A stretch of 64,000 nt of DNA, from positions 1-64,000 of the forward strand of contig JABANP010000141.1 of assembly GCA_013115135.1 (NCBI GenBank), in the 5' to 3' direction. The notes under the pieces are model-generated. The model was not told the DNA's origin and did not search any database. It worked only from the letters and a program-made list of their open reading frames with translations. The stretch comes from Perkinsus olseni. Lineage: Eukaryota; Perkinsozoa; Perkinsida; Perkinsidae. The translations under genes and the position numbers were made by a program. Shown piece by piece: positions 836 through 63,000 of the stretch (positions are counted from its first letter, which is position 1; the number at the start of each line of letters is the position of its first letter).

Positions 836-3397
836 GTATCTCTCAACGCTCTCCTCGACCGGTGCTCTCGGCAGCTCAGTCGGCACCGATACGAAATTCG
901 ACCTTATCAGGAAGTCCTGTATCACAACCAGTGGATAAAAAATCATCACGACGTTTCCAAGGTCGGCAGAGGGTTGTCAGTGAGCCATTTCTGAGACTGA
1001 TAATTGATTCTAAAACCGCGTCATTCTACGCGTAAAAATAAATTATGGATTCGACGGCGAGTTTTGGATCGGTTTACCGAACGGAGGGTGCATCAACCGT
1101 CACTGCGCCACGAAATTATGACGAGTAGGTCCCTGAGGAGGTCCTGGAAGGATGGGGGATTCCTCTGAAATTGATAAAAGCGCTCAAGGAGCAGGTTCGA
1201 GATATCGAGGTGAGAGTTGTGATCTATCGGCCAGGCTGTGGTTCGGAGGTGGACGGTCAGGTCACGGCCATTCGGTCCGACTTCGTTGCTCGGCTGCAAA
1301 TCCTGGGGGACAGGAAGAGTAAGAGGAAAAAAGCGATGGAAAAATTAAAAAAACGCCACAAGGAAAAGTAAGCTGGGCGTGAATCATAGAAGAGTTGGAA
1401 AAAAGAATCTCTTTTAAGAGCAGGACGGCTTTGGCTTGGTCGAGTTAGAATGGCTCAAGCAACGGAACTTCGCTTCGCTTTTTTCATAGAATTTGTTATT
1501 CCCAGAGGGGAGCTTCCGTGTGGGTGTGAGGAGCTTCCATGAGAGCTTTCTCGACCTCAGGTGGGCGGCCGTGACCATCGCGGAGTGCTACAAAAGGTAT
1601 CTTATGAGAAGGGATGGCCACGTGCTCGTCTATCGACCTGACGATGAGGATGGGGAGTTCCGGGACGGCCCTGATTTTTACGAACAGGCTTCTACGATGT
1701 CCTGGAGTATGGGTGATGGTCCAAGGCCTATCCTCAGTGAGTTCGTCATTCTGGGAAACAGGACGATCGCTGAGTTTTCCGTGAACTGATTTGGAATCTC
1801 AGAATTGATTCTGGAAGCGCGTTTTGGGTGTAAAAATCAGTTCCAGAATCGAATCTGAATTTCAGAATTTGCTCACTGAACGGGGGGACCGTTTTCTCTC
1901 AGCCCACCGGAGTAGCGTTTCCTCGGCGGCGTCGAGTAGCACGGCGTCTTACAAGGTCGCGAGGAGGACCATCATGCTGGCTGTGAGTCGATGGATTTTG
2001 CGGTAGGGGCGTGGGTGAGCGGTGGGGGTCGGGTGCCCATGTTACCTCTCCTTAGTGTGCTCAAACGCCGAAGGAAGGCTGCCAATGAAACGTGTCCGCT
2101 TGCGAAGGCCATTCAGAAGGTTTGGCAAAGTACCGGCGCTGGGATTCGATCCGGGGACCTCTAGATACTAGTGGAGAAGGATATTCGGCCTGACCTGGGC
2201 GGCCCTATACGAGACTGGTTGGTCGGCAGGCAGTGGCTCCTCACCGTGGAGGACCTTGGTATCGTCGAGGAGAGGCACTGGCTGAAGTGGAACTCCGAGA
2301 ATAAGGTATCTTTTGTGCACGCGTGCAATCGATAGGTCAACCTCCTGTCAAAGATACCCTGGGGTATGGTGATGCATTTGAAAGAATTGTACTCGACTAA
2401 GTTGACGGAGAGGATGCTGAACAAATTGCCAGACAGTAGCCGTCGGCGGAGGGCCGGGAGACTTTCTCGTACAAATCGAAGCTCAGGTATCCGCGACCGC
2501 GTCCTCTCGAGCTCGGCCTGGGTTAAGCTGATGCCCACCAGAAAGAACAGCATGGTGATGAGGACTCCCTTCATCCACCTTCGCTCCGCTAGAGTTTTTG
2601 TAATTTTTAGATGTCGTCGTGGTTGCGAGGGGTAGTCCGATGGATCAACCCTGACTCCTGGGCGGCTGTTGTTATACAGAGAGCTGTCCGGCCGTGGCTG
2701 ATGACTCGGCGCCCGAAGATGTGGGCAGAGGAACGGGAGAGATGCTCGTTGGAGCGCTTGTTCGGTGTTAGACCATGCCCCTTTGAGGATACTAGATCGA
2801 TTGCTGACAACTACGTAGTGTGCTTGGAGAAGGACTCGGAGAAGGGAGGCCGCTGGTAGGACACAAGCTCGGTTGGTCTAGTGGTTAGAACACGGGACAC
2901 TGTAGGGTGAGGTATAGGGTTCGATCCCTGCTGGGGTCTTTTATGCTCATCCGACGTACCCATACCACACCATTCGTATCTCTTCCGTCAGGACCCCCTA
3001 CTGGTACAGGATCTTCCACACTGAAAGTGGCCGAAGCGACGACGCAGGGCTGATGTATTTCCTAGCCAGTTGGGTGACCAGAGAGGAGGCCTACCATCGC
3101 GACCTCTCCTCAGCCGTCGAGGTCATCCCGGTGAGTCGCTGCAGCAGCGGGCCGGCAGTGATGACCAACGGTGTCGTCCCTCAGTTGCTCTCGGTAAACC
3201 GGGTGCACATTCCTCCTCGGAACTCCAGCCGATCGAGCTTCAACTTATCAGAATCATTAGTGTTCATACTGCGCTACAAGAGGCGAGGGGAGTTCATCAC
3301 TCGACGCCTTCGAGCGTCCACTGCCGCTGAGCTAGAGTTCGCCGCGGGCGAGTTGAAGAGAGCCATCCGAGCCGCCCGGGCCGAAAGGGATCTCTGA
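836..3397 (+). CDS. IQ-motif protein with PH-like C-terminus (5' exons uncertain)
   Basis: I infer one multi-exon gene. Exons from about 1898 onward join in phase: to 2002, then to 2129 (intron 2130-2171), 2305 (intron to 2353), 2545 (intron to 2610), 2855 (intron 2856-2991), and on to the stop at 3395-3397. IQ-like motifs occur at 1583-1630 (AAVTIAECYKRYLMRR), 2104-2129 and 2662-2710 (AAVVIQRAVRPWLMTRR); such motifs usually bind calmodulin or myosin light chains. The C-terminal 70 residues (FILRYKRRGEFITRRLRAST followed by a long helix) look like the end of a PH domain. A 54-nt stopless segment at 3130-3183 could be an extra intron. Exons 836-985, 1132-1370 and 1490-1780 look coding, but their joins were not resolved. 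The specific family is not recognised. Confidence 0.5.
994..1090 (+). repeat. ~95 bp dispersed intronic repeat, copy 2
   Basis: This segment shares the TAATTGATTCTAAAA, CGTAAAAATAAATTATG and ACCGAACGG blocks with the other copies. It is followed at 1105-1120 by a GCGCCACGAAATTA element, so two repeat types may be nested in one intron. Confidence 0.45.
1790..1885 (+). repeat. ~95 bp dispersed intronic repeat, copy 3
   Basis: The segment begins just after a GTGAACTG donor-like site at 1781 and ends shortly before a TTTTCTCTCAG acceptor at 1897. It contains AGAATTGATTCTGG, GTAAAAATCAG and ACTGAACGG. This is the copy that most clearly occupies a whole intron. Confidence 0.5.
2130..2171 (+). repeat. 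42-nt intron made of antisense tRNA-like sequence
   Basis: The intron runs from GTACCGG to ATACTAG and joins exons in phase 1. Its core GGGATTCGATCC is the reverse complement of a tRNA T-arm. It is one of at least twelve tRNA-like introns in the window. Confidence 0.5.
2856..2991 (+). repeat. Intron carrying a sense-strand tRNA-like sequence
   Basis: Between a GTAGGACA donor and a TCCGTCAG acceptor lies TTGGTCTAGTGGTTAGAAC (A-box/D-arm-like), followed 40 nt later by GGGTTCGATCCCTG (T-arm-like). The anticodon stem and acceptor stem do not pair convincingly, so I do not call a functional tRNA. Confidence 0.6.
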
Positions 3398-3908: not shown

Positions 3909-5402
3909 TCATACCGTTTTGCAGTCCAGGGTATGCGAGAAGAACAAGTATTGTGATGCTGTTTACAAGTAGTTTTGGCAGAGGGAGGGACTTGGCTTTA
4001 TTGTGCTGTTGGAAATTTTATGCTACTTTTACTCGTGCAACCGATTTTATGGCTTTGTTGTCTCTAGCGTGGAATACTTGTTGTTGTTTTACTATTTTTC
4101 CATCAGGTTCGATGTTCCGGAGAACCTTAAGTTTGGTTCCTTCGACTCCCTCATCAGATTGGTGGACGACCTTTCCAAGCAGGATTCCCAGGTAACTCTC
4201 AATCGCTGCGCAATGAGTCGCTCACCCCTGGCTTCTCTTCCTCAGGTCGAAGCTGTCCTGCGCCGAATCGAAAGACAGCTTCTCGAGCTTGACCCCAAGA
4301 CCGAGTTCAAGGTGGTGTCTCAGAGGTCCTCTCTCTCGTGCGAGGAGTACATTTCCAAGTTCCACTGGGACGACGCTAAGTTCCCCAGGACCAGAAACAT
4401 CCAGGACAACCTAAGTTTGCTCTTGACCAGCATTCAGAAGCTCGACGAGGAAGTCAAGTCCAAGAGTCAGACCTTCTCCGATTTGAAGACTCAGTACACT
4501 CAGATGAGCAAGAAGGTATGCTGCGTCGCTCCGCTATAGTATCTTTTATTTTGTTTGTCTCTAGGATGCAGGCTCTTACGCCCAGCGTGACCTCACCGAT
4601 GTAGTGACTCCCAAGAGCGTCCGCGATGGTGACTTCGTCGAGACCGAGCATCTCACTACGGTTGTTGTTGTGGTTCCTCGCGGCCAAGATCAAGAATTTT
4701 TGAGCAAATATGAGGCCGCCGCTTCCAAGGTCGTCCCTCAGTCGGCCATTCCCCTCAACCTTCCCGCCGATAAGGACGGTGCTAAGCTGTACCGAGTGGT
4801 TGTCTTCAAGAACAGCGTTGAGGAGTTCTCCAGTAACATGCGACACGCCAGATTCAACTGTCGTGACTTCACCTATGACGCCGCCAAGTATGACGAGCTT
4901 CAGAGCGCCAAGGCCCACATGGAGAGCGAGGTGAAGAAGCAGGAGGCCTTCCTTAAGAGGTGAGGGTACATCTGCTTCGCTCCGCTAAGAGATGTGTATT
5001 TTTTCAGGGTTTGCGCTGCCGCTTTCTCCGATACTCTGGTCGGCTGGATGCACTTGAAGGCTATGCGAACGTTCGTCGAGGCCGTCCTTCGTTTTGGTGT
5101 TCCCCCGAACTTCGCCGCTTTCATCGCGGTGGTCGGCAAGAAGTCCCAGGCCAAGCCAGTTAAGCTGCGCGCTGAGCTCATGGACGTTTTCTCCAGTAGC
5201 GGTCTCTTCGGCAAGAACTACCTCTCCGGTGCGAAGACCGAGAAGCAACAGGGAAGCGCTGCCACTGACGTAAGATTCCCTCGCTAGGTCGATGACGTTG
5301 ATGGTTTTTTTTCCTGTTCAGGAGGAGGGTAGCAGCGAGTACTACCCTTATGTGTCTCTGAGCTTCTCCCCTCTCGTCTCCGCTAAGGCTGGCAGCGCGT
5401 AA
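3838..5402 (+). CDS. ATP6V1C: V-type proton ATPase subunit C
   Basis: This subunit is a stalk component of the V1 sector of the vacuolar H+-ATPase; it links the stator to the membrane and is released during reversible disassembly. Six exons join in phase: 3838-3968, 4107-4191, 4246-4515, 4565-4959, 5008-5269 and 5322-5402, giving about 407 residues against 380-390 typical. Family landmarks are YKFDVP, TYxxxFxWDxAKxP-type (EEYISKFHWDDAKFP), HLTTVVVVVPR, NCRDFTYD, WMHLKAMRTFVEAVLRFG, and the near-terminal EYYPYVSLSF. Intron 3 contains CGTCGCTCCGC and a GTATCTTTTA element; intron 4 contains CTTCGCTCCGC. The start is set by similarity of the first 40 residues to the family N-terminus. Confidence 0.95.
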
Positions 5403-9463: not shown

Positions 9464-9545
9464 GACAGCGTGTCCGAGTGGTTAAGGAGGTGGACTAGAA
9501 ATCCACTGGGCTCTGCCCGCGCAGGTTCGAATCCTGCCGCTGTCG
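9464..9545 (+). tRNA. tRNA-Ser (anticodon AGA)
   Basis: The 82-nt gene has a perfect acceptor stem (GACAGCG with CGCTGTC, discriminator G), a class II variable arm (GGGCTCTGCCC region), anticodon loop CTAGAAA and T-arm GCAGGTTCGAATCCTGC. It decodes UCU/UCC serine codons. An identical gene lies on the minus strand at 31569-31650. Confidence 0.95.
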
Positions 9546-12374: not shown

Positions 12375-12423
12375 TCGGGAGTATCTGATGACGAGTAGCA
12401 GGGCCGCAGCAGTCGAGACTTCT

Positions 12424-14709
12424 TTACTCTTCCAAAAACCTCTCCGTGTCCTCAGCCAGATTGGCCGTCTGCTCTTCCATCTTCAACAGCAGCCCCTCAG
12501 TGTCTGCCAAGGCCATACTTCTCCCTTCCAACTCGGCGGCATTCTGTGCCATCAAGATCAATTACAGCGAGCGTCTCACGCGCCTACCTTAGATTCCTTT
12601 TCGTCCATCTTCTCCATCATTTTGCGTCGGCGGACCACTTCATCTCGCAAGCCCGAGGTTTCGCTCCTCGCCAGAGACAATTGGGCCACCATCAGCTTCA
12701 GCTTCGTCTCGAGCCTCTCGCTAGTCGCCGCTTCTTCTCGCAGTCTCTCCGTCACCTCCCGCAATTCATTTTCCATTTTTTCTATCCGTTTTTCCGCCAT
12801 TTCTCCCGCCCGCTGAGCCCGCGCTAAATCCACCTCCCGAGATGACAGCTGGTCTCGGGCACTTCTGAGCTTATTGGTAGCGCACTTGGCCGACTCCACA
12901 GCTTCCTGCTTCAACCGCCTAATCTGATAGAAAAACCGCAAAATACTCTCAACCTCGATCCGTTGCCCCTCCCCCACTTCTCTCTTTAGAGACGCCAAAT
13001 CTTCTGCAGAGCAAACAGTATAATCATCATCGCCATCCCCTTGTTCTTTTTCGCTCGGACACTGATGGTGAGGGGAGCCCTCTCTTGGTGTCGTCTGACT
13101 ACATCCTTCAACCCAGCTGCGTCCCTCTTCCTCCTTCGACTGTCTCAGGGGACTGGTGCCTAACATCGATCCACACAGTGGTAAGCTTAGAAATCCGAGC
13201 CGACCCACCAATATCAGCGAGCACTAGCTTTCCAGCCACTGACGCTACGGTAGTAGCGACGCCTTCGTTGGTCCGCGTCTGAAGAGTCGGCCTCCCCGCC
13301 TCTGCATCAGAGCTGCTCAGCGCCTCCAGGCGAGCCTCGACTTCCACCTTCCCTCTCCTCTCGACAGACAACTCCTCCTCGAGCTCCTTCACTTTTGCCT
13401 GCAGTACTTTCCTATTCGCCTCCGCTGCCTCCACCGTCGACCGAAGCCTGCCAACTTCAGTCATCATCGACGAGGGCCACTTCCTTCTCCCCGCATCCGT
13501 CGGCCCCGTCGCCAGGAATTCCTCCCGAATGGACTCTATTTCTTGAGAGCTCGCCGCGCCCTCCAGCAGGAAGTGGAGCAGCTCGTTCTCAGCTCGCTCG
13601 GCCGTGTGGGAGTCCATCGACCCTCGCAAGCTGGAAGAAGCGTTGGCGGCCTCCTCCGACGAGTTCACGAAGATTCCTGTCGACTCAGGTGTGGTACTGG
13701 CCGTGAAGCTCGGCTGGGATTGCTCATCTAAAGGAGAGATGATCGAGCTGAGCCAACTAGCCTCGCGGATTCAATCTCGTCCGATCGGTGGTTGTACTAT
13801 GCACATGCTGGTTCAAATCCGGCACCCATCATTTTTACCCTCAATATAATGATGCTCCTCTAGAGCCGACTTCAACTTCTCCACTTCCTTTTCCGCCTCT
13901 TCGCCCCGTCGCCTCCACAACGCGACTTGGTCTTGCAGCCTCTCCACCTCACTGGTCGACTTCTCCAACAGACCCACGAGCTCCTCGATCTCTCCCGGGC
14001 TGGCCATCGCCCCTCCAACAGGCACCTTCGCAGGACGCTCCTTCGCCTCAGCCGTCTTCGGCGGACTGAGCACTAGGGCAATGAATACTGGCGAACGCGC
14101 ATGGACCCGACCTGTCAACCACCACCGTCCGGTCCGGTGCTGGCCTCGAACGCTCGGCCTCAGAGTGCCTCGCCGTTCGCAGTGAATCACATTCATCCTC
14201 CAATTCTTGGCAACGGCCAGTGAGATGCTCTACTCGACTTTGCAGATCTGACAGCCCCAACCCTGCATCCAAGATAAGGAGAAAGAGGAGACCCCACCGT
14301 GGACGGTTTTGATCTCGATGGCCATCTCCTCGTTAGCAGCATTAACGCTCCGCACTTCGGCTTCCAGTACCTGCATGAGCCCCTCCGAGCGAGGCAGAGA
14401 CATTAGGCGACCACCTGGGCACGGTCAGTCAGGGAACGGTTCTCCGCGGTTATTCGTTCCACTTCCCTCGCCGAGTTGGCCGCAGAGGTCCTCACAGATG
14501 CCAACAGGACTTCTTGCGATCTTATCTTCTCTACCAATTTCTCAACGTCTCCTTCGTATCTTTCCCAGCTCAGTCACGAACAATCAATCAGCAAACTAAA
14601 TTTCTCACTTTTCCCGGCAAATGTCGAACTCATTCTGAATGTCCAATTTCTCCATTTGCATGCACTGCGCGAATCTGATCATCAGCATATCCACCTCGAT
14701 ACCATTCCC
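12424..14709 (-). CDS. Large coiled-coil protein of unknown function
   Basis: At least seven minus-strand exons join in phase, ending EDTERFLEE at the stop 12424-12426. The intron with its donor at TCTAAG|GTAGGCG ends near 12551. Another begins after VLADIG. The intron at 13728-13838 carries tRNA-like sequence. Further introns follow VVVD, KTVHG, DRAQ and FDICREK. The protein is almost wholly charged heptad-like helix (EELSVERRGKVEVEARLEAL; ENELREVTERLREEAATSER), with a low-complexity acidic stretch (GDGDDDYTV). A structural, cytoskeletal or basal-body role is possible but only inferred. The N-terminal exon was not found; reading starts at GIEVDMLMIRF near 14709. Confidence 0.6.
13728..13838 (-). 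repeat. Intron carrying tRNA-like sequence (antisense to transcript)
   Basis: The minus-strand intron runs GTAAAAATG...CTCCTTTAG and joins exons in phase 1. On the plus strand it reads GGTTGTACTATGCACATGC then GGTTCAAATCCGGC, like a T-arm preceded by a variable region. Confidence 0.5.
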
Positions 14710-22857: not shown

Positions 22858-24984
22858 ATGTTAGCTCGAGCGGAGGCATCAGTGGCGGCGGGACTTTTCA
22901 CTGCGCCACGAAATTACAGCGTGGCGGCTCGGGCCCTCCAGGACAACTCCACCGGGCCCAACTCCCGGCGGATGCGATCTGTCTTGTCCCCTGCTCGAGG
23001 GGAGGATGCGCGGCTCCTGCAGGATATGCGGAAGATGATACCGAACCTGTTCCACGGGGAAAGGGCAGACTTCGGCAAAGTAGAGGAGATGACAGCCAGG
23101 GTAGTGGGCGAGCCTTAACGCGGTGGCTGGGGGGCTATCCTAAGGCTGGCTGGATTATATTAATTTTTGGATTGCATTTTGTTTCCAAAATTACTGCTAA
23201 TTACGTATGATCTTTGTCATTGACTTCCTCGAAGAAAATGCTTCTATTATTGATTTCTGGCCGATCTATCGCTCTACCGTTGTCGTGGAGCTGGTGATTC
23301 ACAGTCTTCCTCGCCCGAGCTCCTCTGGTGGTCTGTGTAGGAAAGTAACTCTGATGAGTCATTCTGCGTCTTAACTCAGTTCAAACGCCATTGGCGGTCG
23401 TATGATGACGTTAATCTTGTGGTGGAGGGCTTCCGAACCTTGGCGAGGCTGCATGCTGGGCATAGGCCGATGGACGGGGCGCTGGCGAAGGATCTCCTAC
23501 TCTTCATTAGAAGGAACCTTGACAGGGTGGAGGACCTGGGTTCCATAATGTGCGTGTGCATGCGTGCAGATTTATTGTGTCGAGGTGTCCCCCTCGAGGT
23601 ACGCTCTGTCAATTTGTGTGAACCGCAATAAAGTGTTGAACTGTGATGTGGACCAAGTGGAGTTGATCAAAATACGAGATGAGCTGATTGGAAGAATCAT
23701 CAGACGCATGCGGGGGAGGACGGCCCACATGCTGGTCACCGAGAGAGTGCAGCTCCTGAATGCTCTGGCTAAACTGGAAAACACGGAGTGGGCAGCTGCC
23801 TCGACTCGATGTGGTTTGGATTGATAATGGGTCAGATACCAGCCTCTGTTCCACGAGTTGATGAGGACGGTTTTGGAGTCGTATCAGTCGTGTATCGGCA
23901 ACGACCTCGCGATGGCGAATTGCAATTTTTATAACTCGAGCGTTTACGTCATTACAGCAGCGGCGAAGGCTGGTCTGGTGAATAAGGAACTCTTTGATTT
24001 AATTGCCAATCAGTGCATAGATGGATTCGAATATGTATGCTGCAGGGTTCGAACCGACATCCTTCAGATTAATAGCTGGTTGCTCTACCACCCGGCTATT
24101 TTGGTTGATTGTTTGGGTAAACCGTAATTTCAGGTACCATATTTAGCGCTTTCACATCTGCTCAACGGCTTGGGAGAGCTGTCTTCGTGTGGATACTCCT
24201 TCGAACGATGGCCGGACCTCTTCGGAAAAACAGCGAGTATCTTTGAACCCCATTTGATGCTAGAGTCGACCTCCCTGGTGCCACCAGCAGCCATCATGCG
24301 AATGCTCAAAGGCCTCACTCTGGCCACCATCAGCGGTCAGTTGGAAGATTCCGAGCGTGTTAAAGAGGTCGTCACGAAAGCGCTGGGCAACCTCGCCGAG
24401 ACGGTAGCCGAGCATGAGGCTCTGGCCTGGGACAGCCATAGTGTACCCGATCTTGCCTTCGTGATGGCCCACTTCCAGCTCAGCAACGATAGCCTGATCG
24501 AGCTCGTCACTGCCTACTGCACCGACAAGGCGATGGTGGACTGGCCGGTGGTTCATCTGGTGACGACCCTTAAGTAGGGCGAAGGAATACCCATTGCGCT
24601 CATCGTCTTCGTGTCAGGTACGGCACTCGGCTTCCTCCGAGCGATGCTGTGGAGGCCTGGCTCGATCGTATCCTCTCCCACACGCTCTATAGTTGCCGCT
24701 ACTGCGATCCGCCTACCCTCACCACTCTAATCGAATGCCTGGTCCACCTCTACCAACAGGAGGACCTCCTCCCTACTCTGAAGCGAGACGATCGATGCCG
24801 TCGTATAAGTCTGGCATGCTCGAGGGAGCTGGTCCGATGGATGCAATACTTCACTGCGCCCGATGCCCTCCGCTGCCTGGCTATGCTTCGGACCTTGGAG
24901 CGCCGCTTACCCGACCTCACCCTCCAGGAGTGGCTCGAACCGACTATCAGAGAATTCATACGACAGGGGAAGACGGTCACGTGA
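22858..24984 (+). CDS. Helical-repeat protein, probably mitochondrial (HPR/FASTK-like class)
   Basis: The Ala/Arg-rich start (MLARAEASVAAGLFTAPRNY) could be a mitochondrial presequence. Clear exons begin at FKRHWRSYDD (about 23379), VSPSRYALSICV (after an intron holding TGCATGCGTGCA), LFHELMRTVLE, VPYLALSHLLNGL (24134) and YGTRLPPSD (24617), ending at the stop 24982-24984. Paired-helix repeats such as ELFDLIANQC, VPDLAFVMAHFQL and LRCLAMLRTLERRLPDL match the heptatricopeptide style of apicomplexan mitochondrial RNA-associated proteins. The join near 23820 was not resolved. The intron 24035-24133 contains the most complete tRNA-like sequence of the window. Confidence 0.6.
24035..24133 (+). repeat. 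99-nt intron containing a near-full antisense tRNA-like sequence
   Basis: The junction DGFEY/VPYLAL is in phase 0. The intron's reverse complement shows a D-arm (GGTGGTAGAGC), an anticodon-arm-like AGCTATTAATCTGAAGG and a T-arm-like TCGGTTCGAACC in the right order and spacing. The acceptor stem does not pair, so it is tRNA-derived rather than a working tRNA. Confidence 0.65.
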
Positions 24985-27792: not shown

Positions 27793-30148
27793 ATGTCGCC
27801 GCTGAACACCAGCAGCTCCTCCGCCAACAGTACCACTCAGAAGCCGATGGTCTTCCCAGATTATAACGGTCTTCAGAAGTGCACCTGGAAGGTCGGCGAC
27901 GGTCTCGACAATTGTCCCCATCACGTCTTCGGTCGGACGTCGAAGTCCTCGTCTGCCGGTAGCGGTAGGGTCGTCAGCAGCGCCCTCGAGTTGGTCGGGA
28001 GAACCCCCATGATCAAACTGGAGAGGATCATGAAGGAGTTTGATTTGCCCTGTAAGTTGCCTCCCTTCGATTGGCTGTTGGTCGATGGTGGCGACAGGTG
28101 AGCTCTGGGCGAAGGCCGAGTACTTCAACCCGGGTGGCAGCGTTAAGGACAGGATAGCGTTGAGGATGATCGAAGCTGCCGAGGAGGAAGGGAGGGTAGG
28201 CTAAAATGTGCATGCGTGCATACCAACTTTTTCCCGAATCAGATTCGGCCGGGCGACACTCTGATTGAGCCCACTAGCGGGAACACTGGTACTGGTCTCT
28301 GCTTAGCGGCTGCAATTAAAGTAGGAGGGAAGGAAGTGTCGTCGTCTTTCAGTTGAGGTCTTCAGGGGTACAACATGGTCATCACTATGCCGGAGAAAAT
28401 GAGCGGGGAGAAAGTGAACATGATGAAATCCCTAGGCGCCAAGATTTTGCGTAAGTCGCCAGGGTCAACCTAAGATTCTCCATGGGTATCTTGACCAGGT
28501 ACTCCGAACGAGGCCGCATGGAACACACCGGAGTCGCATATCGGATTGGCTATTAAGTTACAGAAGGAGATTCCCAGGAGCCACATTCTGGACCAGGTTG
28601 GCACCACCGGACGAGGGGCGATGATGGTGTTGCTCAGTACCTCAACCCGGCTAACCCGATGGCCCACTATGAAGGGACGGGAGCGGAGATAGTCGACCAA
28701 TGCGAAGGAAAAGTTGACGTGTAAGGTTGCTTGTCAGCGTGTGGCGGCGGATTTGAAGGCGTCAGGATGGTCCTTGGGGCTGGTACTGGTGGCACTATTA
28801 CGGGAGTAGCGAGAAAGCTGAAGGATGAGCTCGGGGAGAAGTGTAGGGGGGAGGGGCGGGGTGGTTTTGATGAGAATTTCGACAAGGTTTGGTGGTCGGC
28901 GTGGATCCAATCGGATCGATTTTGGCGGTTCCGGACTCTCTGAATGACCCAGGAAGGTTGGAGGGTTACCAAGTGGAGGGGATCGGATATGACTTTATAC
29001 CAACAGTAGTGCTGAGATGTCGCCGCCGGGGATCGAACCTGCGACCTTCTCAGGTCCTCGACCGAGATCCTAGTGTGATTGACGAGTGGATGAAGGTTGG
29101 CGACCCGGAAGCTCTAAGCATGGCTCGAAAGCTCATCCGGCTCGAAGGCCTCACCGTCGGTGGAAGCTCCGGGACCTGCGTCGCTGCTGCAGTAGGCTGA
29201 TCGAGACGGGAGTAGTCGACTTGACCGCTTCTCCTCAGGTCCGGTATATAAAATCGCAAAGGCCCGAGGAGATGGCGGGGAAGAGGGTAGTGGCGTTGCT
29301 GCCGGACTCCTCCCGTAATTACATGTCCAAGGTAAGGGGCGCAGTCCTCGCTGCTGCCGTTAGGATGCCTTCCTGTCGTCAGTTTCTCGATGATGGCTGG
29401 ATGTTCGCTCATGGTTTTATCACTCTGGAGGAGCATCCAAGGTCGACCCTTGCAGTCGGCAAGTTAGGTTCAGCAGTTACTCGTCTCAGTTACTCAACCT
29501 ACCGGAAGAAGCCTTGGGGTGGCGTATCTTTGAAGGAAGCTGGAATAGTTTTATCGAAGGTTCTGATGCTCAGCTCGGCTCTGTCGGCCGCCGATGGCAT
29601 CAAAAAGATCCAATCGGCTGCCCGAGAGGACCCTAGTTTCTCATCCGAGGTGAGTGGACGCCGGTCGGTCGATGATCCTAGCAGAAGTCTTCGCGCGAGA
29701 TTTTCGCTTCGACAGGATCTCGCAGCTTTCATAGTGGGATGATGATTAGTGTGAATTCAACTGTTAGCGATCCCGCAGGATACCTCCCCGCACTGTGAAG
29801 ATTCTCGTTTGACCATTCGGTCAGGTTGCCATGCTCAGCAGTGGGGAGGAAATGGTCACCATCACCAACTTGTACGCCCGACTGTCAGCTGCTGACGAGC
29901 CCAAAGCTCTCACTCTTGAAAAGTGCAAGTAGGCGAGTGGTAATTTCGTGGCGCGCGACATTTCTCTCCGTTCGGACAGGCATAAACCGAGCCCCTTGAC
30001 GGTGGGAATGGACTCATCCCTAGCGGAAGTTGCCACCAAGCTGGATGTGCAGCCCTGCCTGCCGGCGGTCGGCGGTGATGATGACCAGATCGCTGGTGTT
30101 GTCGACCGTGGGGCATTCCTCGAGTTTTTGGCCACTTCATCCGCATAG
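27793..30148 (+). CDS. CBS: Cystathionine beta-synthase
   Basis: CBS condenses serine and homocysteine to cystathionine using PLP. Fifteen exons: 27793-28051, 28098-28195, 28243-28320, 28366-28450, 28499-28596, 28638-28720, 28766-28842, 28887-29005, 29054-29191, 29239-29331, 29383-29518, 29549-29649, 29716-29733, 29825-29928 and 29980-30148; about 551 residues. Landmarks: GRTPMIKL, the PLP-lysine block [67 protein letters not shown] and GGSSGTC. After the catalytic core comes an unusual helical segment (29549-29928), then one recognisable CBS motif ([20 protein letters not shown]). No clear N-terminal haem-binding motif was seen. Several introns carry recurrent elements. Confidence 0.93.
29006..29053 (+). 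repeat. 48-nt tRNA-like intron in CBS
   Basis: The conserved protein junction FIPT/VLDR fixes both splice sites. The intron's 3' half, GGGGATCGAACCTGCGACC then TTCTCAG, is an antisense tRNA T-arm that also supplies the acceptor. Confidence 0.6.
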
Positions 30149-31383: not shown

Positions 31384-32053
31384 TTTTGATGATGATGCGT
31401 CCGTTTTGTATTCTGAGTATCATTGAGTATCTTGAGGTTGAGTTCGACCGTCAAGGAACAAGCGGAAGGAGGATCCTCCGAAGGGCGGCAGAAGGGCGGT
31501 CGTCCCCCAGCCTATACGGATTGATGAGGAAATGTTTGAAACGCCACGCGAAAAGGCGAACACGAATTCGACAGCGGCAGGATTCGAACCTGCGCGGGCA
31601 GAGCCCAGTGGATTTCTAGTCCACCTCCTTAACCACTCGGACACGCTGTCTGATGCATCGCGTGCTGCTATCTCATGTTCCAACTTGCATATCTCAGGTC
31701 CACTCATCAGCACCGTCCGCCCCGCAGCCGATTTCGAAGAAGAAGCGTCTCAGACGGATCACTCAAATCCCTATCTCATGATAATTACTAACTACACCAC
31801 TTTCCACTTTCATACCGAACGTAGGCCTCAGACCGATTGAATCATCCCAAGGACAATTGGAGAGTCTGTATCATGCCGTGTCCCAACCGAGGCCGAATGA
31901 CCCTGCGTAGGGGGTCCTATGATCATCAGTGAGATTTCGTGGATTAGTTTTCGATCCGCCACCGTCTCGTCGTCAGCACGACTTTAATGGAACCGACTAA
32001 ACACGACAGACTCACTTAGACATCAAATTAACATCAATTATTGGTATTATGCT
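31384..32053. other. Spacer holding an inverted duplicated patch with tRNA-Ser
   Basis: About 31470-31670 is an inverted copy of about 9440-9660, containing the end of the coiled-coil gene (GAGGAAATGTTTGAAACGCC) and the tRNA. The rest shows no gene. Confidence 0.6.
31569..31650 (-). tRNA. tRNA-Ser (anticodon AGA), second copy
   Basis: This is the reverse-strand copy of the tRNA at 9464-9545, with the same acceptor stem, anticodon and T-arm. It sits inside a duplicated patch that also copies the 3' end of the neighbouring coiled-coil gene, so it arose by segmental duplication rather than retroposition of the tRNA alone. Confidence 0.93.
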
Positions 32054-32831: not shown

Positions 32832-35800
32832 TCACACCTTCAATTTTATGAACCTAATGACGACGGAATCTCCCGAAGACCGCCCCAACCCTTCCCTTAT
32901 TACGACATCCTGTCCCGAAGTAACCTTCCCGAACACAGTGTGCTTGTTATCAAGGAATGGGCACGGTACCTACTCGCAGGGCAATACCAAAAACCTTACG
33001 AGAGCTAATCTCTCACAGTGGTGATGAAGAACTGGGAGCCGTTGGTGTTCGGCCCAGCGTTCGCCATTGAGACCATGTACGGCTCGGAATGGTCCAACTC
33101 AGGGACCTGATCGAGGTAGAGCTTACCCGAGTGACGTATCTTTCGAGCTTACAAATTCGTCTTCAAAGTCGCCACCCCAGATACTGCTGCCTCCCATGCC
33201 AGTGCCTTCGGGGTCTCCCGTTTGTATCATGAACTTATTGATAACCTACACGGCGGTATCCGAATAGGTCGCGGGTTCAATCCCTGCACCCTGCATTATT
33301 ACCCTATGGAAGAGCACATCGTCATAATACCCATCCTGTGCATGCTTAGTGAAATTCTCGACCGTTTTCGGCACCAGTTTGCCGTACAAGTCAATTTGGA
33401 TGTCACCGAAGTCCGTGTGAATGACCGCCTTCTTGCCGATCCTGAATGATAATCATCCCCTCTCCCACACCTTTCCTTCCCTACTTGATCTGCGGCTTTC
33501 TGCTGCCAGCAGCGGCGGCAGCAGCAGCGGACATCTCATCGGCCGTCGGTTTCTCATTGAAGATATCGCGCTGTTGGCCAGCCCCGGTGTCGCTCGGAAG
33601 ACGCTTCGTAAAGAGGTAGAATCGTTTCTTTTTGAAGCTGATGATGAAAATGAAATCACCTTCCCATCTCGACTCGCACGTTACCTGGTCGCCACTAAGG
33701 TCGGATCGGTGACGTACTCGTAGGCCCCTGCCCCGGCTGCTGCGATGTTGTCTTCCCCTCCGGGGTTGACCTTCTGTCGGACAGGCTTGGGTTGCAATCT
33801 GGAATGGGGTCGAATTGAGAGGGCAAAGGGCGGTGCTTTTCCTACAATGCTGTGGCGAGGAATCTCTCACTGGACTCGACTTTTCCGAGTAGAGTTGACA
33901 AATGGTTTGTGACAAGATTCACCACCTAATATAAAGAGCTCGGTCCAACCTAAAGATATTTCCGTGCTTCTACCTTGATACCGACCATAGTGGGGTAGAT
34001 GATGAAGTTGCCCGACTGATCGAAGTCCAGCGTTTGATACATCGCGTCGGGTGATTTCAACAGCTCCTTCTCTACAGCACATCGGCGGCCAAAATCGAAA
34101 CTGATGAATGAAACTTTTCACGCGCCACGAAATTACCTACAAGGAGGCTATTACCCGTCCAAATGAACTTGTTTCATGAGGGGGTCTGACTGCGCGATGC
34201 TGGTCGCGTCTAGAGACTCATCGAAGGCCTTGAAGAGTTTACCGGTCCTGCAAGGGGGCGGCATGGTAGGATGAGAGGAGGGCTGTGGCTGGGACGGACC
34301 TTGTCTTGAATACTCTCACTTGGGAGTCCTTGCTGAGGACTGCAAAGCGCTCACCATTAGGGGAGATGGCGAGGTCGAAGGCGGTCGTCTGATACAAGGG
34401 AGCTGGGCATCTTACGACACGATGAAAGTTGGGACGATTTCGAACGCTTTCAAGATGAGATATTTCCGATTTTTCGATAGCTTCACGAGATGCGAGGGAT
34501 GATGGAGCGGTGAGAATAACCCGGCGAACTCGACTGGTACTCCCGCGTTCTGCGGACATCGTCGTTACGCATTCGGCCGCTTCGACGGGGTACAGTTGGG
34601 GAGATCTCAATCACTTCATAGAAAAAACATTTTTCAATGGCTATACGGAGAGTGGCGGATGGCGTATCGCCATTGCAAAGCGAAGTGCTCAGGTCCACTC
34701 AACTAGTGTCTCCCTCCCCCGTCCTGCTGACGTTGTCGACCTCACGATACTACCTCGGCTGCCTTCAAGTCAAAGAGACTTGTGTCGAATTTGGACTTGA
34801 AAGATACGCTTTCCGGTAGCTGCAATGTTATAGGATCCCAGATATCAATCAACCCTCCAGTATCAATGGATACCACTAACTTCAGTTTATCATTGTACCT
34901 TGCAATAGGCCCCTAGTTCAATTCCCAGCAGCAGTATTATAATTACTTCATATGTTGTACCGGGTCGAGGTGGGCAGTGTACGTCTTTGGTTTTGCCTTC
35001 GGGTTGCCCAGCTTCGAAATCGGCCAGATTTCCACCGTACCTCAGAGATGCCACCTTTCTTTCTTCAATAGGTTGATGAGTATCTTACTGTCATTCGTGT
35101 TCGACACAGCTAAGGTCGCCGAGGGTGAGTCAGCCTCGTGGATGAAGCAGCAAGAGAGGGGATCCAGATTGGAAAACTTGTGCATCATGACCATGTTAAA
35201 ACCAGCGACATCGAATACTTTCACGCATCTACAACGAGATAGGGTATCTTACACTCCTATGAAAGCCGCGCTCAACCTCAAGATATCTCCGCTTACTTGT
35301 CCTGCTTTCCCAGCGTAGCGAATTCCATACCGGAAGCACTGATGGTGGCGCAGGCTATCGGACCCTTATGGGCTGCGTAATGCTTCACGAACTCAACCTG
35401 ATTCGACCGATGATACACAGAAATATCTTTGGTACTCGTGGAACCCTCGCTCGACCTCACACAATGCAACTTTTATTACCCCTATTTTCCGCTTTTTCCA
35501 GAACTTGACGTGACCATCGGTCGAGCAAGTTATGATAAACTCTTGCGACTTGGACACCACAACGTGCGAGACCGGGGCCCTGCGGAACGACTCGACTCAG
35601 ATCAAGAGAGGGAAGCACAACACTACTACCGATGCATGAAGCTCCTCTCGTACATGGCCGCACTGGGAAGATTCTCAAGATACTCCTTCTCATGGGCCAA
35701 CTGTTTCCTTATTTTCCGACGCTTCTTGGCTGGTTGAGGTGCCGGCTGAGGACAGAAAATTCCTATCAATCGTTCGGAATTTGTGCCTTACCATCGGGGC

Positions 35801-52812: not shown

Positions 52813-55800
52813 ATGCTCCACCGCAGGCTCTCGGCTCTAATTCGTTCAGATACAATCGGCAGCGTCGCTGCGGACAAGGCTTCTCTAGTGGAGATTAGAG
52901 GTGGGTGGTAGAGGTCGTAGGTTCGATTCCTTGCAGTGGCATTTCGTCTCACAGATATCGATTCAATTGTGAATGTTGAGTTGCCTGACGGAGATGACAT
53001 CAGAATGATAGCGGCATGCCGAGACTGTCTGCTTGCTCTCGGTGGGCTCCTCGGGAATTACACGGTATCACTGGGGATCGAACCCGGGACCTTCTCAGGG
53101 AGATCTGGCAAGTTGTACAGCGCGGCCACTGAGATCTCACAGTCGCCAGCGCCGCGCGGGGTCGGCGGCGCTGCGAGCCTCCCTGATGGTAACGGATGGA
53201 AGGAGGTGAAAGCTGCTATAGGTCGGATTGATCCGCAGAAGTGCAGCGCTTTAGATACCATCTTTTCGCGAAATCACAATTCGGTACATCGCTTGTGGGG
53301 GCAGCACATGCTTCGCAATCACACAAGGAGGCGATGTGTAGGTCGTTGCCAGCTGCTGCCTGACAGAATTTCGATTCCACGAGAATTAGCAAGATTATGG
53401 CGATCTGAGTAGATATTCTTGGGGGACAAATTTTGCGGGGGAGGCGGCCAACTTGGGATCCATCAGCTCAGTACCACGACTCTCGAGTCGATTGACTAAG
53501 CTGAAGGTGTGAAGAGGTCCCGGGTTCAAATCCCATCGGGAGTTTTTCTCTATTAAGATCCTCAAGATAGCAGTAGGAGGTAACCACTGCCTCGGAATAA
53601 CAGGATTACAGCAATGCGTGGCTTGGGGTGAAAACACATGTGGCCAGTTAGGGGTGAGTTGAGGAAACGCAAGATTAGCAAGATTCCCTAGTTTCTTCGT
53701 AATTTCTTTGTAGATCGGCAAGAAACTCTCGTCGAGCAACCAGCCACTCTTCGTGAATATGCCGGCTCGAACAGATAAGGAAAGTAGGGCGGAGCGAAGC
53801 GATTACCATTCACCATTTTCGCTCAGACTGTGATGATCATCATATGACTGTCGTTGATATCGCTGCTGGCTGGGCCCACTCCGTCTTTGTGGACAATAAC
53901 GGACATGCATACAGGTCACTCTGCCTCGAGCGGTGGCGTATCTTAGGTCGAACCCTGCCTCTTACGAACCAAATACGTCTAGTACTGGCCTATTCACCCA
54001 ACCGCGAGATCCCCAACCTTCCCTTCCTCAGTTTTGGTCTAAATTCTCATGGTCAACTCGGACTGAATGACACCCGATCTCGCTGGTCACCGGAGGTGAT
54101 CACGACACTTCGGTAGGCCTTAAGGGTCTATCGATTCTGGGGTATCTTTGTCGCTCAGAGAGGTCACGCATATTGGTTGTGGTAAGCTGTTCACAGCAGT
54201 GTGGGCGATGGGAACAACGAGAGCCTCTCGGGGAGCCAGGGGCGTCTACTATGCTGGGAAGGTCGACCTGCTCACTGTTAATGCTGATCTCTGAGGGTGA
54301 CAAGGATATCTTCAGAATCTTCGCAGCGCGCCACCGGTTGGCGCGGTCGTTGATGCGGACCCTGAGGAGCCGAATGAGGTGACAGCGGCCACTAAGGATC
54401 ACGATGGACTTTTCTCGAAGAAGTTTGTGAGACGGCAGGAGCGTAGGTGCCGATGGCGAACGACCTGGAGTGGCGATGCGCACGCGTGCAGGTCCGCATA
54501 TTTTCACCGCCACTGGCAATTCGACGGCGAAATTCACAGGGCCACTGGTGAGAGTCCGATGAGCTTATCATGGTCATTTACGGATTTCAGGATATGCGTC
54601 CGCCGTTTCCGTCGGAGTATACTCTGTCGGCGCCTATTACTGCTATATCAAGCATGCTAGCCTCGGATAATGTGAGCCCTGTGCTCGGTATCATCATACC
54701 ATCTTTTTCGCAAATCATCAGATGGTGTACGTCTTCGCTTCGACACATATAGCAGCGCTCTCTCCGAGTATTGCAAACCTCTCCGGTGGTACTCGAGTGG
54801 CCATTCATGTTACGGGTGAGTGTATCTTCCAACCTTGCAGGATACAAACTAGCTCAAGTTGCTCTCAGGCCTATCATATCCTTCTTCAACCCCCAGTTCC
54901 CTCGGCCAGGCTCGTGTCCGTCTGACCCGTCAAAGCCCAGCACTTGACCACATCGTTGATGCCCAGATTGATGTCGGGGTGGCCCCGTGGGGCTTCTCAC
55001 GTCCACTCTCTCCTTCAGGAACTTTCACCTGGACGGATCTGTTTCGACTTTCCCGACCTCTCCCTCTCCCCACTGGCGCCACTGGTAGAGTCGGCAACCG
55101 CTCCCACCTTCCTGGGCGTCCAGGTGGGTTCGATCCGAGGGAGAGGGAGTTCTCTGTTATTTTTTTCCGTGGGAATTTCTGCTCAGTTATCGTTGGACGA
55201 CGGGCTCTCCTGGACGGCCTTGGACGAGACTCAGCCAAAAATAGCCGTGATGAAGTTCCCGGAAAGGCAGCTTGTGGTAAGTCCTGATTTGTTCCTTCCT
55301 GACCTATTCCGAATCTTGCGCGCTCGACCTGAAGATTCCTCCCAGGTGGTGCCCAACTGTGCTTCTATGACTGGTGGTGCCCCATTGACTGTGTTCCTGC
55401 CCGGAGCCCCTGGCCTGACGGTCGAAGGCGAGCCCGCTGGCGGCCCGCCTGCCCTTCCTGATAACCTCCCGGTGGGCGTGACGGCATGTGACAGCATCTC
55501 TCGTCTCGGCACTTGACATCTAGAGCATCCTCTAATGGAATGTCACACCCGAGACGAGTCCCTCCAGTGACGTCATCCCCTTCCAATCTGCCGCCCGTCT
55601 CCTCTCGGTGCCCCCCCCACTCTCACCGGGGTTTTCTGTTCAGGATGATTCGTTATTGGCACTCTTCACCATTGAGTGCCGGTCGAAGGCTGTTGACTCG
55701 GAGGACTTCGATGACGTGTGAGTGTAGCGGAGCCTCCTGATTCGCCTCCCCTTTGATTCATAGCCTCTGAGGGTTCCACCTGACTGACTTGGTTTCCGGC

Positions 55801-58137: not shown

Positions 58138-59974
58138 ATGGTTCGGCAGTCATCGTCTGGCCGAGAAGAACTGAACCCTGTGGTCGAGGAGGTAGGCGGA
58201 TGGTCGTCGGAGTGCAGACGCAATGGCACTCTCAGTTACGATTAAACCCTTCCGTGGACCCGGACCGGGAAGACCCGGGAAACGATGCCTTGCTTGACTT
58301 CTATAGCGCTGTTGGTCGAGAGGACGAGGAGCTAGTCCGGTAATCCGAAGGTCCATGGTTCGAGTCCCCTGTCGAATTTGATCTGCCCCTTGGCAGGTCG
58401 ATGGTAGCTGACGGACGGCCTCTCGTCAAGTTGAACTCACTGAGAGCCTCGCCGCTGCTTCTGTCTTTGTGGAACAACAACCCTCGAATTCTATCGCTGC
58501 TGTTGGACGCCGGGGCTGATGGAGTAAGCGGCGACAAGAGAAGCGGCTTCGCTCCGCTGCATCATGCTGCCATGTGTCAAGGAGCCTCCGAGTGTATCAA
58601 GGTAAGCCCACATTGACCGTCTTGTGTGGAGGACCCCTTCCCTTCGGGTTAGCTGCTGGTCCAGTATGATGCTGATCTGTTATGTCGGACTTCGAGAGGA
58701 GGCTACACGCCCCTCTTCCTGGCCTGCGCATTGGGGATCACGGATAACGTGGCAACACTACTCGCTATGGCATTGCAGAGTGAGACCGCGCTCACGCCTT
58801 GACCTATTTCATATCTTGCGTGCTTGACCAGAAGATTTTCAGGAGCTCCTGCCGTATCGAGCCTGCCCGGCAGAGCGTTCATTGAGTCCTGCAGCACTAC
58901 GCGCGGCCACACTTGTTTGGTGGCAGCAGTGAGAACAGGAAATCGCGAGCTAGTAGTGAAGGCCGAGTCAAGCCCATGCCCTCCATCAGTGGACAGGTCT
59001 CCCTTCTAGTCCACTGCAGAGCCTCCGTCTTAGCGGCTGATCCTAACGGGATTACTCCAGTGGAGGCGGCGAAGGGACGGTATGGAAGATCATCGGAGAC
59101 TGATCCGCAGAGGTTCGATCCCTGGTAGTTGTATTCTGCTTCAGGGATGACATGCTAGAGGCGCTGCTCGGCCGGAGCGCTCGACGAAAAAGGTAGGTCG
59201 GCGCTAAAATGAGTGTTTCATCGAGTCCCTGTGGTCCGCCTCTCTCGAGCCCACGGAATGGCTTCATCTTTTATCAACATTACTCGGCCTAGGAAGGTTC
59301 AGCATCATTCGGGTGGTTGAGGGCCGGGTATTGAGTATTTCCTCGGAATCCGCGGCGGCTCTTTCAACTTTTGGTTTAGATCACCTTATAGACCACTTCC
59401 AACGGCAGTGGCGGCTGGAGGGCTGCATCGCTCCGCCTCCTCCTCTGAAAATATTCCGTCTCCGTTGGCTCGGAGAGTGCTACCTAGCAGATCACTACCA
59501 CCACGAAGGGTAGGACTGGTTTGAGGAAATGCAAGAGTGCAAGTGACACACTTGTTGTCAGGGTGGAGGCTTTCTTGGAATCTCCTTTCGGCGGGATGGT
59601 CGCGCTGGTTTCTTGAACCCAATGTCGATCGGGAGGGTCCCGGAGGCTGCACGCATGCGCAGAGTCAGATCTCAGGCCCAGCAGAATATGAGACTGATGG
59701 ATCGAAATTTGGTCGTCCAGCCGATGGCTGTGCGTGAGACATTTTCGCGCGCCACGAAATTGGCCTCTTTCAGGCGAGCGCGAGTGTGCGGCAGTACGAG
59801 ATGCTGCTTTCCGAGGAGGGTGTATTGAAATCTCAACGATTGCTCGAGAGTCAGGTTGGGGGACCACCAGGAGAGACAGCGAGAGGCCTGAGGAAGATTC
59901 TGATAGAAAAACAGAAAATTGGCAGACGGCAGGTTCTGGAAGGCCTTGACCTCATGCGCTGGTGTTGCTGTTGA
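58138..59974 (+). CDS. Ankyrin-repeat protein
   Basis: Exons in phase include 58138-58191, 58236-58339 and 58397-58601, then LLVQYDADLLCRTSRGGYTP, RAPAVSSLPGRAFIES, VSLLVHCRASVLAADPNGIT and DDMLEALLGRSARRK (from 59145). Ankyrin consensus is seen four times: ASPLLLSLWNNNPRILSLLL, GFAPLHHAAMCQGASECIK, GYTPLFLACALGITDNVATL and GHTCLVAAVRTGNRELV. The C-terminal part (PTEWLHLLSTLLGLGRFSII, then a basic helix and MLLSEEGVLKSQRLLESQ) has no recognised domain, and the product ends MRWCCC. One join (near 59190) is unresolved. Two introns are tRNA-like, and one carries CGCGCGCCACGAAATT. Confidence 0.65.
58340..58396 (+). repeat. 57-nt tRNA-like intron continuing from exon sequence, ankyrin gene
   Basis: The join is in phase 2 (DEELVR/SMVADGRP). 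The intron contains GAAGGTCCATGGTTCGAGTC. The exon before it (GTTGGTCGAGAGGACGAGG, then AGCTAGTCC) supplies the matching D-arm and anticodon-arm half, so the tRNA-like unit straddles the splice site. Confidence 0.55.
59080..59144 (+). repeat. 65-nt tRNA-like intron (sense), ankyrin gene
   Basis: The join is in phase 2 (EAAKGR/DDMLEALL). The intron contains CGCAGAGGTTCGATCCCTGG, a T-arm with adjoining variable region, followed by TTCTGCTTCAG. Confidence 0.55.
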
Positions 59975-60080: not shown

Positions 60081-63000
60081 ATGTCGACCATTCGACCAGA
60101 CCTATCGAATTCCCTTCCCTGCCTTGCCGCTACTACCGTCCCTGAGAAGAATGAAAAACAACAACAGAATACCCTGGAAGGTTGCCAACCTACTCCCGCG
60201 GACGGTGAGCCATTTCGTCTGCCTCTCTCTGTTCAATAGGCCCCCTGCTCCCCGGAGACCCCCTGCTGCTCTCCGGGTGAGCGGTCGCGCTTTTGAATTC
60301 TCGCGCGCCCTGAAATTGTCAGCACTGTGGAAGGCGGGGGGGGGCAGGGTGGCGCTCAGTTAACCAATTCTGAAATTCATAGTGGAATCTGGAGTTGCAT
60401 ATTGCTTGTAGAAAAAAATCCAGAATCGGCCCTGAGTCTCGAAAGTAGCTTATCGAACAGGAGGATGGCGTGTGGAATACCTCGTTGATTTCAGAATCTT
60501 CACCAACCTCCTCGGCTCCAATAGGGGCTGCTGCTGCTGCCTCCAACTCTAATCGTCCTTCCAGTGGCCGGATACCGGTCCTATTCCTCCTGTCGGTAGA
60601 TAATGTCGGCAGGTTGATTGGAAAACAAGGAAGGATTATCAATCAGGTTAGCGGTCGGGAGAGTACCATCTCTTCGCTTATTGATGAGCCCTTTCGCCCT
60701 TTTATTGATAGGCCTGAGGTTGACCTATTTCGTATCTTACTAGGATGTTGGCTGGGATATGCCGTCGCCTGTGCCTTCCAGAAGAGGACTTCGATCCTCA
60801 ACGCGTGGAGAGGGAGATCTTCCGAGCTGACTCTAAGGTGAAGTTTTCCACATCCTCCGCCCCGGAGACCCTCGTTAACTTCCCATCCCTCAGGTTTCGT
60901 CCGATACCTGCTGCATTTGCCTGCTCATCCCGGGTAAGCTCCATCAGCGCCCACTAGCATCTCGCACAGCTGAGTCCAGGTAGTACGCTGCCGGGCATGA
61001 TCGGTCATGAAGGACAGACCGTGAGGAGTCTCCAAGCCGATACAGGCTGCATAATTCAATTCGTCACAGAGCCTGTTGTTGGCACTCCCAACTTTAGAAG
61101 GTCAGCCAGTGAGGGGTACCGACTTGAGTGACCGTGTTGACGATGTAGGTGCCGCATCACTGGATGCTGGCCGAACCTGGGTAGGGCAGTGATTGCTGTC
61201 GTTGAGAAATTGCAAGATTTGCAAGATCGAGGACGAGCTGGGGTTTCCTTCCCCGGTGGATGGGACCCTCTCACCAACCCAGGAAGACTGGAAGATAACG
61301 AGTTGGCCGCTAATTGTAAGTCGCCCGTTGGATTGAACCCGGGAGCTTCGCAGTGAAGTCGGACGGTCTGCCCTGTTGATCAATCAGCTCCCTCTTCAAG
61401 TCGCGACATTGGCCTGCCCTCTCTCGCTGTTATCGAGCCGAGTAGATTCCTGGTGTCACCTCAAGAGGCCGCCTGGCTCCTCGGCAAGTCGGGTAGGTCA
61501 AGTTCCTGTCCGCCGTCAACGATCGGGAGGCCCCTCTTAGGTCGAAAAATTAATCGCCTCCGCGACAAGTACTCTCCCGCCGTATCCATCAACGTTGATA
61601 CGGTCACTCCGGAATGGAGGGTAGTACTACTTATCGATCATCCGGGCGCGCGATAAGGCAGTTTTCTCTTCAGGTGGTGTCGGTTGGACTATCTTCACCT
61701 TATTCCCGTTCGGCCTCTCTAAGGAAGGCTCACGCCCTGCTGGACCTCCTCGGCGATCTCGAAAGGTGGGTCATCCATTTTAGGATTTCTTAACCTGTCG
61801 GTGGTCTCCTCAATGGCTCTCTCGTGGTGATATCTTCATTTCTATTGTCCACCACCTTCGACCTTAGGGCTGCCGGGGACGTATGGCAAGGCATGGCAAA
61901 CTCCTCTGACGGCCCACCGTCGTATGTAATGTTAGATACCCGACACCGGCCGTGATCGGTCCGAATGCTTCTTCGGTGGAGGCCAACTTCTTCCTCCGTC
62001 ATTCTGGCTCTAAAATGAAGGTGTTGATTCCACCGGAGCTCTTCGGGGCGGTGATGGGCCGTGGTGGAGAGAGGATGCGCAGACTTACTAGGGCCACAGG
62101 AGCCGCTATACAGAAGTACCGCCGCTGGGATTCGAACCTGCGAAGGGGTGGAGCTCACCGTTTTTCAGAGTTAGACCCTCGGACTCCCCTTTATCCACTG
62201 GAGACACTCTGACGGAGTCGGTTATTCGCAGGACTCTGAGCTCCCACCGACTCATCGAAATTTCGGGCACGTCTAAGCAGAAGGCTGGTAAGTCGACCCG
62301 TCAGCAATCATCCGAAATCTGATGGGGGGGTACCGGGTACTATGATCACCCTCCTTCGAGAAACCCCTACGGGACCCAACTTCCCTACTCGCCAATAATT
62401 AGGTCTTCGGTGCGAATAGCGTACAACGCTGGTGAGGTGTATGACTCGTTGACTACAAATAGCTGTTGGCATGATAGAATTCAAAGCTCGTGCCCCCCGA
62501 CTGTATCTTCGTCCTGTGGTAGCCTCCTCTCATCTCATCTGTGTTCCTCAGACGCTATCTTGAGGGTGGTCCAAATCATGGATCGCAAAGCTCTGGACAT
62601 CGCCGGCATCCCGGATGACGACCGTAAGGATTACTACCCGAATAGTTCATCGTCATCCATCTCATAATTCTTTAGGTGACTCTTCTTCCGGCAGCCCATC
62701 CGTCGCCTCCCCCCGCTCCCCTTCCACCAGCGTTCATCGTGGTGGTAACAATTCCAACGGCATTACGGAGAGGCTCAGTGAGTGTGTTATTGTTATTGAG
62801 CAAACGGTTGAGTGTGGCGGTAGGTGCTTTCGAAAGGAGTGTCCGCGAGGCCCAGTCGATGCCACAGCTCATCAACACCTATGTCACGATGACGGTGAGA
62901 ATTCAAGCCGGTCAATCGAATGGTCCGGGTTCAATCCCTTCAAAGAACGCTCAGAATATCGTGTTCGGTAGAGCTTTAGTCATCGCCACCTACCTCAGAT

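Follow-up and report, generated by a model that had tools for sequence, protein, structure and literature searches.

T-arm sequences in short spliceosomal introns of Perkinsus and their probable descent from tRNA-gene pieces

The source of new introns is a long-standing question, and to our knowledge the large-scale sources recognised so far are mostly transposon-like introners. A 64,000-nt stretch of DNA (the window) from the shellfish parasite Perkinsus, located on contig C48 of the 61.5 Mb, 968-contig assembly searched here, raises the question of whether tRNA genes can act as such a source. A preliminary description had reported tRNA T-arms in at least twelve putative introns of unrelated genes in the window, and proposed that they form a new class of introner. 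The observation of T-arm introns is confirmed as real, and is larger than first stated: thousands of pieces resembling the tail half of a tRNA gene occur in the genome, and protein homology indicates that pieces of this kind, in either direction, are introns of several well-conserved genes.

T-arm introns in the window

A T-arm was located at all twelve positions, eleven with an exact match to the B-box pattern GGTTCRANYCC and one (2130-2171, GGATCGAATCC) with a mismatch. The orientations (seven antisense, five sense) were as described, and GT..AG ends were found on the expected strand in 12 of 12 cases. Support for the sites as introns is more uneven than had been proposed. Protein homology is good for 29006-29053, 33246-33302 and 62116-62231, moderate for 53507-53557 and weak for the two sites associated with ankyrin repeats (58340-58396 and 59080-59144), while those starting at 2130, 2856, 13728, 24035, 52901 and 53065 display only open, phase-compatible flanks. 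An open-frame test of 94 elements against random positions gave no separation (Fisher p=0.39 and 0.27, rank test 0.06), hence such flanks have little power as an intron criterion.

Table 1 T-arm introns, candidate introns and tRNA genes in the window.
Position	Strand	Feature	Basis
29006..29053	+	T-arm intron (antisense), phase 0, 48 nt, cystathionine beta-synthase (CBS)	spliced alignment; PDB
33246..33302	-	T-arm intron (antisense), phase 0, 57 nt, cyclophilin domain of PPWD1	PDB; Pfam
34899..34946	-	second PPWD1 T-arm intron (antisense), phase 2, 48 nt, missed earlier	WD-repeat match
62116..62231	+	T-arm intron (antisense) predicted to split a KH domain	KH_1 19.5 bits on the unspliced frame, 43.5 bits on a short spliced piece
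53507..53557	+	T-arm intron (sense), phase 0, RCC1-repeat gene, moderate support	Pfam gains
59080..59144	+	candidate T-arm intron (sense), ankyrin-repeat gene	spliced frame NGITPVEAAKG^RDDMLEALLG
58340..58396	+	candidate T-arm intron (sense), upstream of ankyrin repeats	Ank_2 E=0.058 only
52901..52954	+	candidate T-arm intron (sense), near RCC1 repeats	T-arm, open flanks
53065..53142	+	candidate T-arm intron (antisense), near RCC1 repeats	T-arm, open flanks only
2856..2991	+	candidate intron, near full-length sense tRNA-like (A-box-like + B-box, by eye)	
2130..2171	+	candidate antisense T-arm intron, single mismatch in the B-box	
13728..13838	-	candidate T-arm intron (antisense)	
24035..24133	+	candidate antisense T-arm intron, by eye resembling a tRNA along most of its length	
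62928..62938	+	further exact B-box match, absent from the earlier list, intron or exon	
9464..9545	+	genuine tRNA-Ser(AGA) gene, outside the class	ARAGORN, Rfam
31569..31650	-	genuine tRNA-Ser(AGA) gene, outside the class	ARAGORN, Rfam

Spliced alignment with P. marinus CBS returns exactly the intron 29006-29053, and the junction is gapless to PDB CBS chains. The CBS protein encoded in the window has its best match in P. marinus, with 91% BLAST identity and 87% over the full spliced alignment. The ~1.1 kb of coding sequence in this gene (27793-29330) is interrupted by nine GT-AG introns, each 41-48 nt long. T-arm introns resemble these ordinary neighbours in their GT-AG ends and in length; the difference is that the profile scan found no T-arm in the other eight CBS introns. 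Ordinary Perkinsus cis-introns are described in the accessible text of PMC3101222 as GT/AG introns of 39-1622 bp, mostly shorter than 100 bp.

In PPWD1, the alignment to the PDB protein is gapless over the FHR^VIN junction at 33246-33302, and the Pro_isomerase score is 77.0 bits spliced versus 64.9 unspliced. The spliced peptide at 34899-34946 runs gapless through the junction to WD-repeat proteins (best E 1.9e-5 for Utp13; human PPWD1 E 0.11). Splicing of 53507-53557 raises the scores for RCC1 (18.5 to 27.2 bits), WD40_RLD (26.6 to 31.4) and RCC1_2 (27.1 to 27.9); a protein search with this gene returned nine proteins, none named as Perkinsus. For the candidates, the spliced 66-aa piece around 59080-59144 gave no Pfam match at E<=1, and none was seen in any minus-strand frame of 11500-15501 (around 13728-13838) or at 24035-24133. 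The flank score of 52901-52954 exceeds all random sites save a rounding fraction, and 53065-53142 holds AGs that would give earlier 3' ends.

Other parts of the window offer anchors for gene models, with V-ATPase subunit C exons at 4102-4977 and the start of an M16 peptidase at ~25.3 kb. A nucleotide-sugar-transporter-like protein occupies one long open frame (30154-31383) beside intron-dense neighbours, with Pfam scores just under the cut-off.

T-arm motifs and introns across the genome

The T-arm motif is commoner than chance in the genome. Exact matches to GGTTCRANYCC number 5,367 compared to 507 for the reversed pattern, from which about a tenth are judged to be chance matches. The stricter GGTTCGAWTCCC yields 852 versus 16 reversed, and GGTTCRANYCC with one mismatch allowed 21,291 versus 13,232. 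Subtracting chance matches and tRNA genes leaves, by arithmetic, ~4,000 exact non-tRNA copies, a count that does not give the intronic share. A 264-kb sample, consisting of the window and 20 pieces of 10 kb, contains 34 exact matches versus 1 reversed, three of the 34 being accounted for by tRNA genes (the two tRNA-Ser of the window and one tRNA-Arg in locus L016). A 36-column T-arm profile, trained on the same sample that was scanned, found 65 sites at threshold 8, compared to 6.2 in shuffled sequence, and 42 at threshold 14.5, compared to 0. A second sample took every exact match from contigs C1-C5 plus the first three from C6, giving 89 matches at 80 loci. Eight of these lie inside seven tRNA genes and 81 outside, with one palindromic site (L063) entering the 81 twice, once per strand. 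Together with 31 from the 264-kb sample, this makes the 112 non-tRNA exact matches that were tested. High-scoring tRNA genes themselves occur in tandem runs on C778, C823 and C607, for example with ~166-nt spacing at C778:307743-310471.

Loci outside the window were chosen rather than drawn at random: 99 non-window matches with usable flanks on both sides were ranked by codon score, and 23 of the first 24 were taken. Pfam gave a match for 8 of the 23 flank pairs and none for 15, and five of the eight fit an intron (L098A, L060, L061, L045 and L050). Two of these, L060 and L061, are T-arm introns in RPN1, and both are gapless to PDB RPN1. Reading through the L098 sequence revealed a further T-arm intron, L098B. 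This phosphonopyruvate-decarboxylase-like gene (G000:C5:77000-77600, minus strand) thereby carries two T-arm introns in opposite orientation with an 86-nt exon between them, the cleanest pair seen. Splicing raises the scores of L045 (cation efflux) from 19.6 to 31.2 bits and of L050 (response regulator) from 16.8 to 24.2 bits, the latter still below the Pfam cut-off; the gain is partly technical in both, because a GG-joined piece in a longer string was compared with an exact join.

Not all exact matches behave in this way. The piece at L104 is best interpreted as coding and in frame with an RsmB-like domain, which scores 29.4 bits when read through versus 25.2 with the piece cut out. L107 reads open through and has no Pfam match, and the exact B-box matches at both loci probably represent coding sequence. 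L066 and L105 have a Pfam match that does not decide between the two readings. PDB searches with the spliced L085 and L045 pieces returned nothing, and L085 also has no Pfam match; L085, L038, L103 and L105 were kept as unproven candidates outside the count of introns.

Eleven T-arm introns with GT-AG ends are thus supported by protein homology, which indicates a segment absent from the product and an exact frame join. Seven are antisense (CBS, PPWD1 twice, KH, L098A, L060 and L061) and four sense (RCC1, L098B, L045 and L050). Support is unequal in strength, and appears weakest for RCC1, L045 and L050. Within the C1-C6 sample, six of the 81 non-tRNA matches are homology-supported introns, most of the sample being undecided.

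tRNA signature and fold of the elements

When the B-box was excluded and flank columns were scored leave-one-out, 96 of the 112 non-tRNA exact matches (86%) exceeded the 95th percentile of random sites. Among the 81, flank columns follow tRNA positions 44-48 (AGGTC), C72 and A73, and are then T-rich; position 65 is C or G in 78. TTT is found downstream of 40% of elements versus 36% behind real tRNAs, and a CCA end in 0 of 112. A core of ~34 nt is common to the copies, with a V-loop region that splits into classes and an acceptor region with a weak excess of similar pairs (161 within two changes versus 98 shuffled). Neither the anticodon side and sequence 5' of the V-loop nor the trailer (+24..+44) displays similarity between copies beyond a few pairs, and no shared body or 3' tail was seen. 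D-arm and anticodon-arm landmarks, previously said to follow in order in several introns, are present in a minority at most. An A-box with up to one mismatch occurs in 25 of 63 elements versus 23% of random stretches, and with up to two mismatches in 58 of 63 versus a background of 77%, the B-box being present by selection of the matches. An origin of the elements from tRNA genes, mostly from their 3' part, is well supported, with Perkinsus tRNA genes the likely source pool.

Elements differ from these tRNA genes in their loss of pairing. Acceptor pairing at tRNA distance was found in 24 of the 112, close to the 20 expected by chance, compared to 11 of 11 real tRNA matches. The T-stem has a mean of 3.73 pairs, identical to the shuffled value (3.73), versus 4.91 for real tRNAs (4.33 shuffled). 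A T-arm scan that required three of four stem pairs gave six sites in the window, two of them the tRNA-Ser genes, compared to 1.7 by simulation; such a low number suggests T-stem pairing is mostly lost. Neither ARAGORN nor Rfam covariance search, even at E<=10, reported a tRNA at any of the 12 window elements, including the near full-length 2856-2991; the two tRNA-Ser genes were the only calls in the window. With acceptor pairing at chance and T-stem pairing as in shuffled sequence, we reject the elements as functional tRNA genes. One repeated segment (95.6% identical over 946 nt; L014:9070 and L028:1606) contains, in both copies, the same tRNA-like sequence, and its T-stem is paired.

The T-loop core is far better kept than the flanks. 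Using a flank model trained on other loci, flank-positive sites made up 28 of 31 exact matches (1.6 expected by chance), 15 of 65 with one mismatch (3.2 expected) and 40 of 578 with two mismatches (28.9 expected). None of the 15 flank-positive one-mismatch sites is changed at T55, C56, R57, A58 or C61. With T-stem pairing lost and the T-loop core retained, the elements are neither tRNA genes nor fresh copies of them. Slight covariation was detected at one T-stem pair, 50-64 (p=0.011); its absence from the T-stem otherwise sits badly with a recent origin from intact tRNAs.

Origin of the T-arm introns

We consider it probable that inserted tRNA-gene pieces, splice-ready in either orientation, gave rise to a class of short spliceosomal introns and that their tRNA fold has since decayed. 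The inserted piece would consist of the variable loop, T-arm, acceptor 3' strand and discriminator with the T-rich bases that follow. In antisense, the V-loop and anticodon side would provide a pyrimidine-rich 3' splice site, as in the CBS intron (GACCTTCTCAG), where the earlier proposal that tRNA sequence can supply the acceptor holds. A GTA donor would lie near the tRNA 3' end or the T-run, giving the scheme GTA...GGGRATCGAACCYGGGACCTYY..CAG, from which single cases vary. In sense, the T-rich tract would be placed ahead of the AG. Read in either direction, the quasi-palindromic T-loop core (TTCRA / TYGAA) could form a branch-site-like motif, which would account both for the use of the two orientations and for conservation of the core. 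Such an insertion could be spliced out from the start and be tolerated within a gene; later the tRNA fold would decay and the T-loop core be kept, perhaps for splicing. We infer from sequence how the pieces work, their route of insertion and selection on the core. The pieces may have entered by retroposition of pre-tRNA, by capture at breaks on the DNA level or through an old burst of SINEs. TYGA occurs 1.24 times per 45 nt in the eight other CBS introns (10 in 363 nt, a base of eight introns in a single gene), compared to 0.51 in the sample and 0.56 in CBS exons. The core of the RCC1 T-arm intron reads TCAA rather than TYGA. More tentative is the extension of this model to a genome-wide intron class, derived from tRNA 3' pieces that came ready-made either way, in which the T-loop core now persists under selection for splicing.

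The usual source of tRNA-like repeats is the tRNA head of a SINE, and the elements could represent tRNA-derived SINEs scattered genome-wide, some having landed in older introns. The modest A-box enrichment and the high overall abundance of the motif (5,367 versus 507) would fit, as would descent from tRNA genes and retention of the B-box. We nevertheless regard this as unlikely: in introns of 47-57 nt most of the length is taken up by the T-arm piece, which often adjoins the splice sites and leaves little older intron, and the copies compared have no common body, trailer or tail and no target-site duplication, and consist mostly of the tRNA 3' part. Quite unlikely, in our view, is that the core is a functional B-box (a TFIIIC or Pol III site) under selection, which introns just tolerate. 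Selection for TFIIIC binding would also preserve the core relative to its flanks, and the T-rich bases downstream and the use of both orientations agree with it; what it does not predict is placement beside the splice sites of introns as short as 47-57 nt, and tRNA fold and acceptor pairing are lost. Convergence of TYGA-type branch sites and pyrimidine tracts on a T-arm-like appearance by chance can draw on the TYGA enrichment in CBS introns that have no T-arm. It is hardly tenable given the V-loop, position 65, positions 72-73 and T-rich signature at tRNA spacing (96 of 112), for which splicing has no need.

Classical introners, mobile elements in the course of spreading that generate introns as their copies insert, would account for the many copies, the unrelated genes and both orientations, and introners have been reported in the dinoflagellate relative Amoebophrya (PMC7789003, accessible text). 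The accessible texts of Gozashti et al. 2022 (PMC9860276) and Farhat et al. 2021 (PMC7789003) describe introners as families of similar copies, those of Amoebophrya with direct and inverted repeats. T-arm introns share with them one sequence source for many unrelated introns; they differ in that the tRNA-derived core is all that copies have in common. Highly similar copies in unrelated introns were not found among the 112 matches, which are dissimilar outside the ~34-nt core. When 11.5 kb that includes seven exact elements was searched against the genome, no further element copy was returned, weak evidence as very common words were skipped and sensitivity is limited; its sole other match is 75 nt long, at a place without an element. 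Target-site duplications, suggested earlier as a test, were not seen at the splice sites beyond the splice-site consensus: the in-register repeat at the junctions of the 11 T-arm introns has a mean of 2.73 compared to 2.71 for swapped partners (p=0.51). A young mobile family is not supported, similar copies being absent from these comparisons, and we consider classical introners very unlikely. Of the preliminary description, what stands is that unrelated genes have spliceosomal introns with tRNA-derived sequence in either orientation; in the strict sense of a mobile family now spreading, the term introner is not supported by the sequences compared. BLAST within the sample, among the best 139 of 189 pairs, detected segmental repeats. 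L018 and L019 (contigs C118 and C121) are related, internally repeated segments, mostly 78-97% identical, and may be allelic or duplicated clusters.

A description of tRNA-derived introns was not found in the accessible texts of PMC7789003, PMC9860276, PMC3706591 and PMC3101222. The word 'tRNA' has no occurrence in the accessible main text of PMC9860276 and two in that of PMC7789003, both tRNA synthetases. A title and abstract search gave nothing like tRNA-derived introns among the matches listed. In open full text, with subscription journals outside the scope, phrases such as 'tRNA-derived introns' had a single use, in an archaeal exosome paper.

If true, descent of an intron class from tRNA would represent a source different from transposon-like introners, with a testable reason for its success in the splice signals that tRNA pieces would carry in both orientations. 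The ~4,000 exact non-tRNA copies in a 61 Mb genome would permit dating of these insertions and comparison across Perkinsus species.
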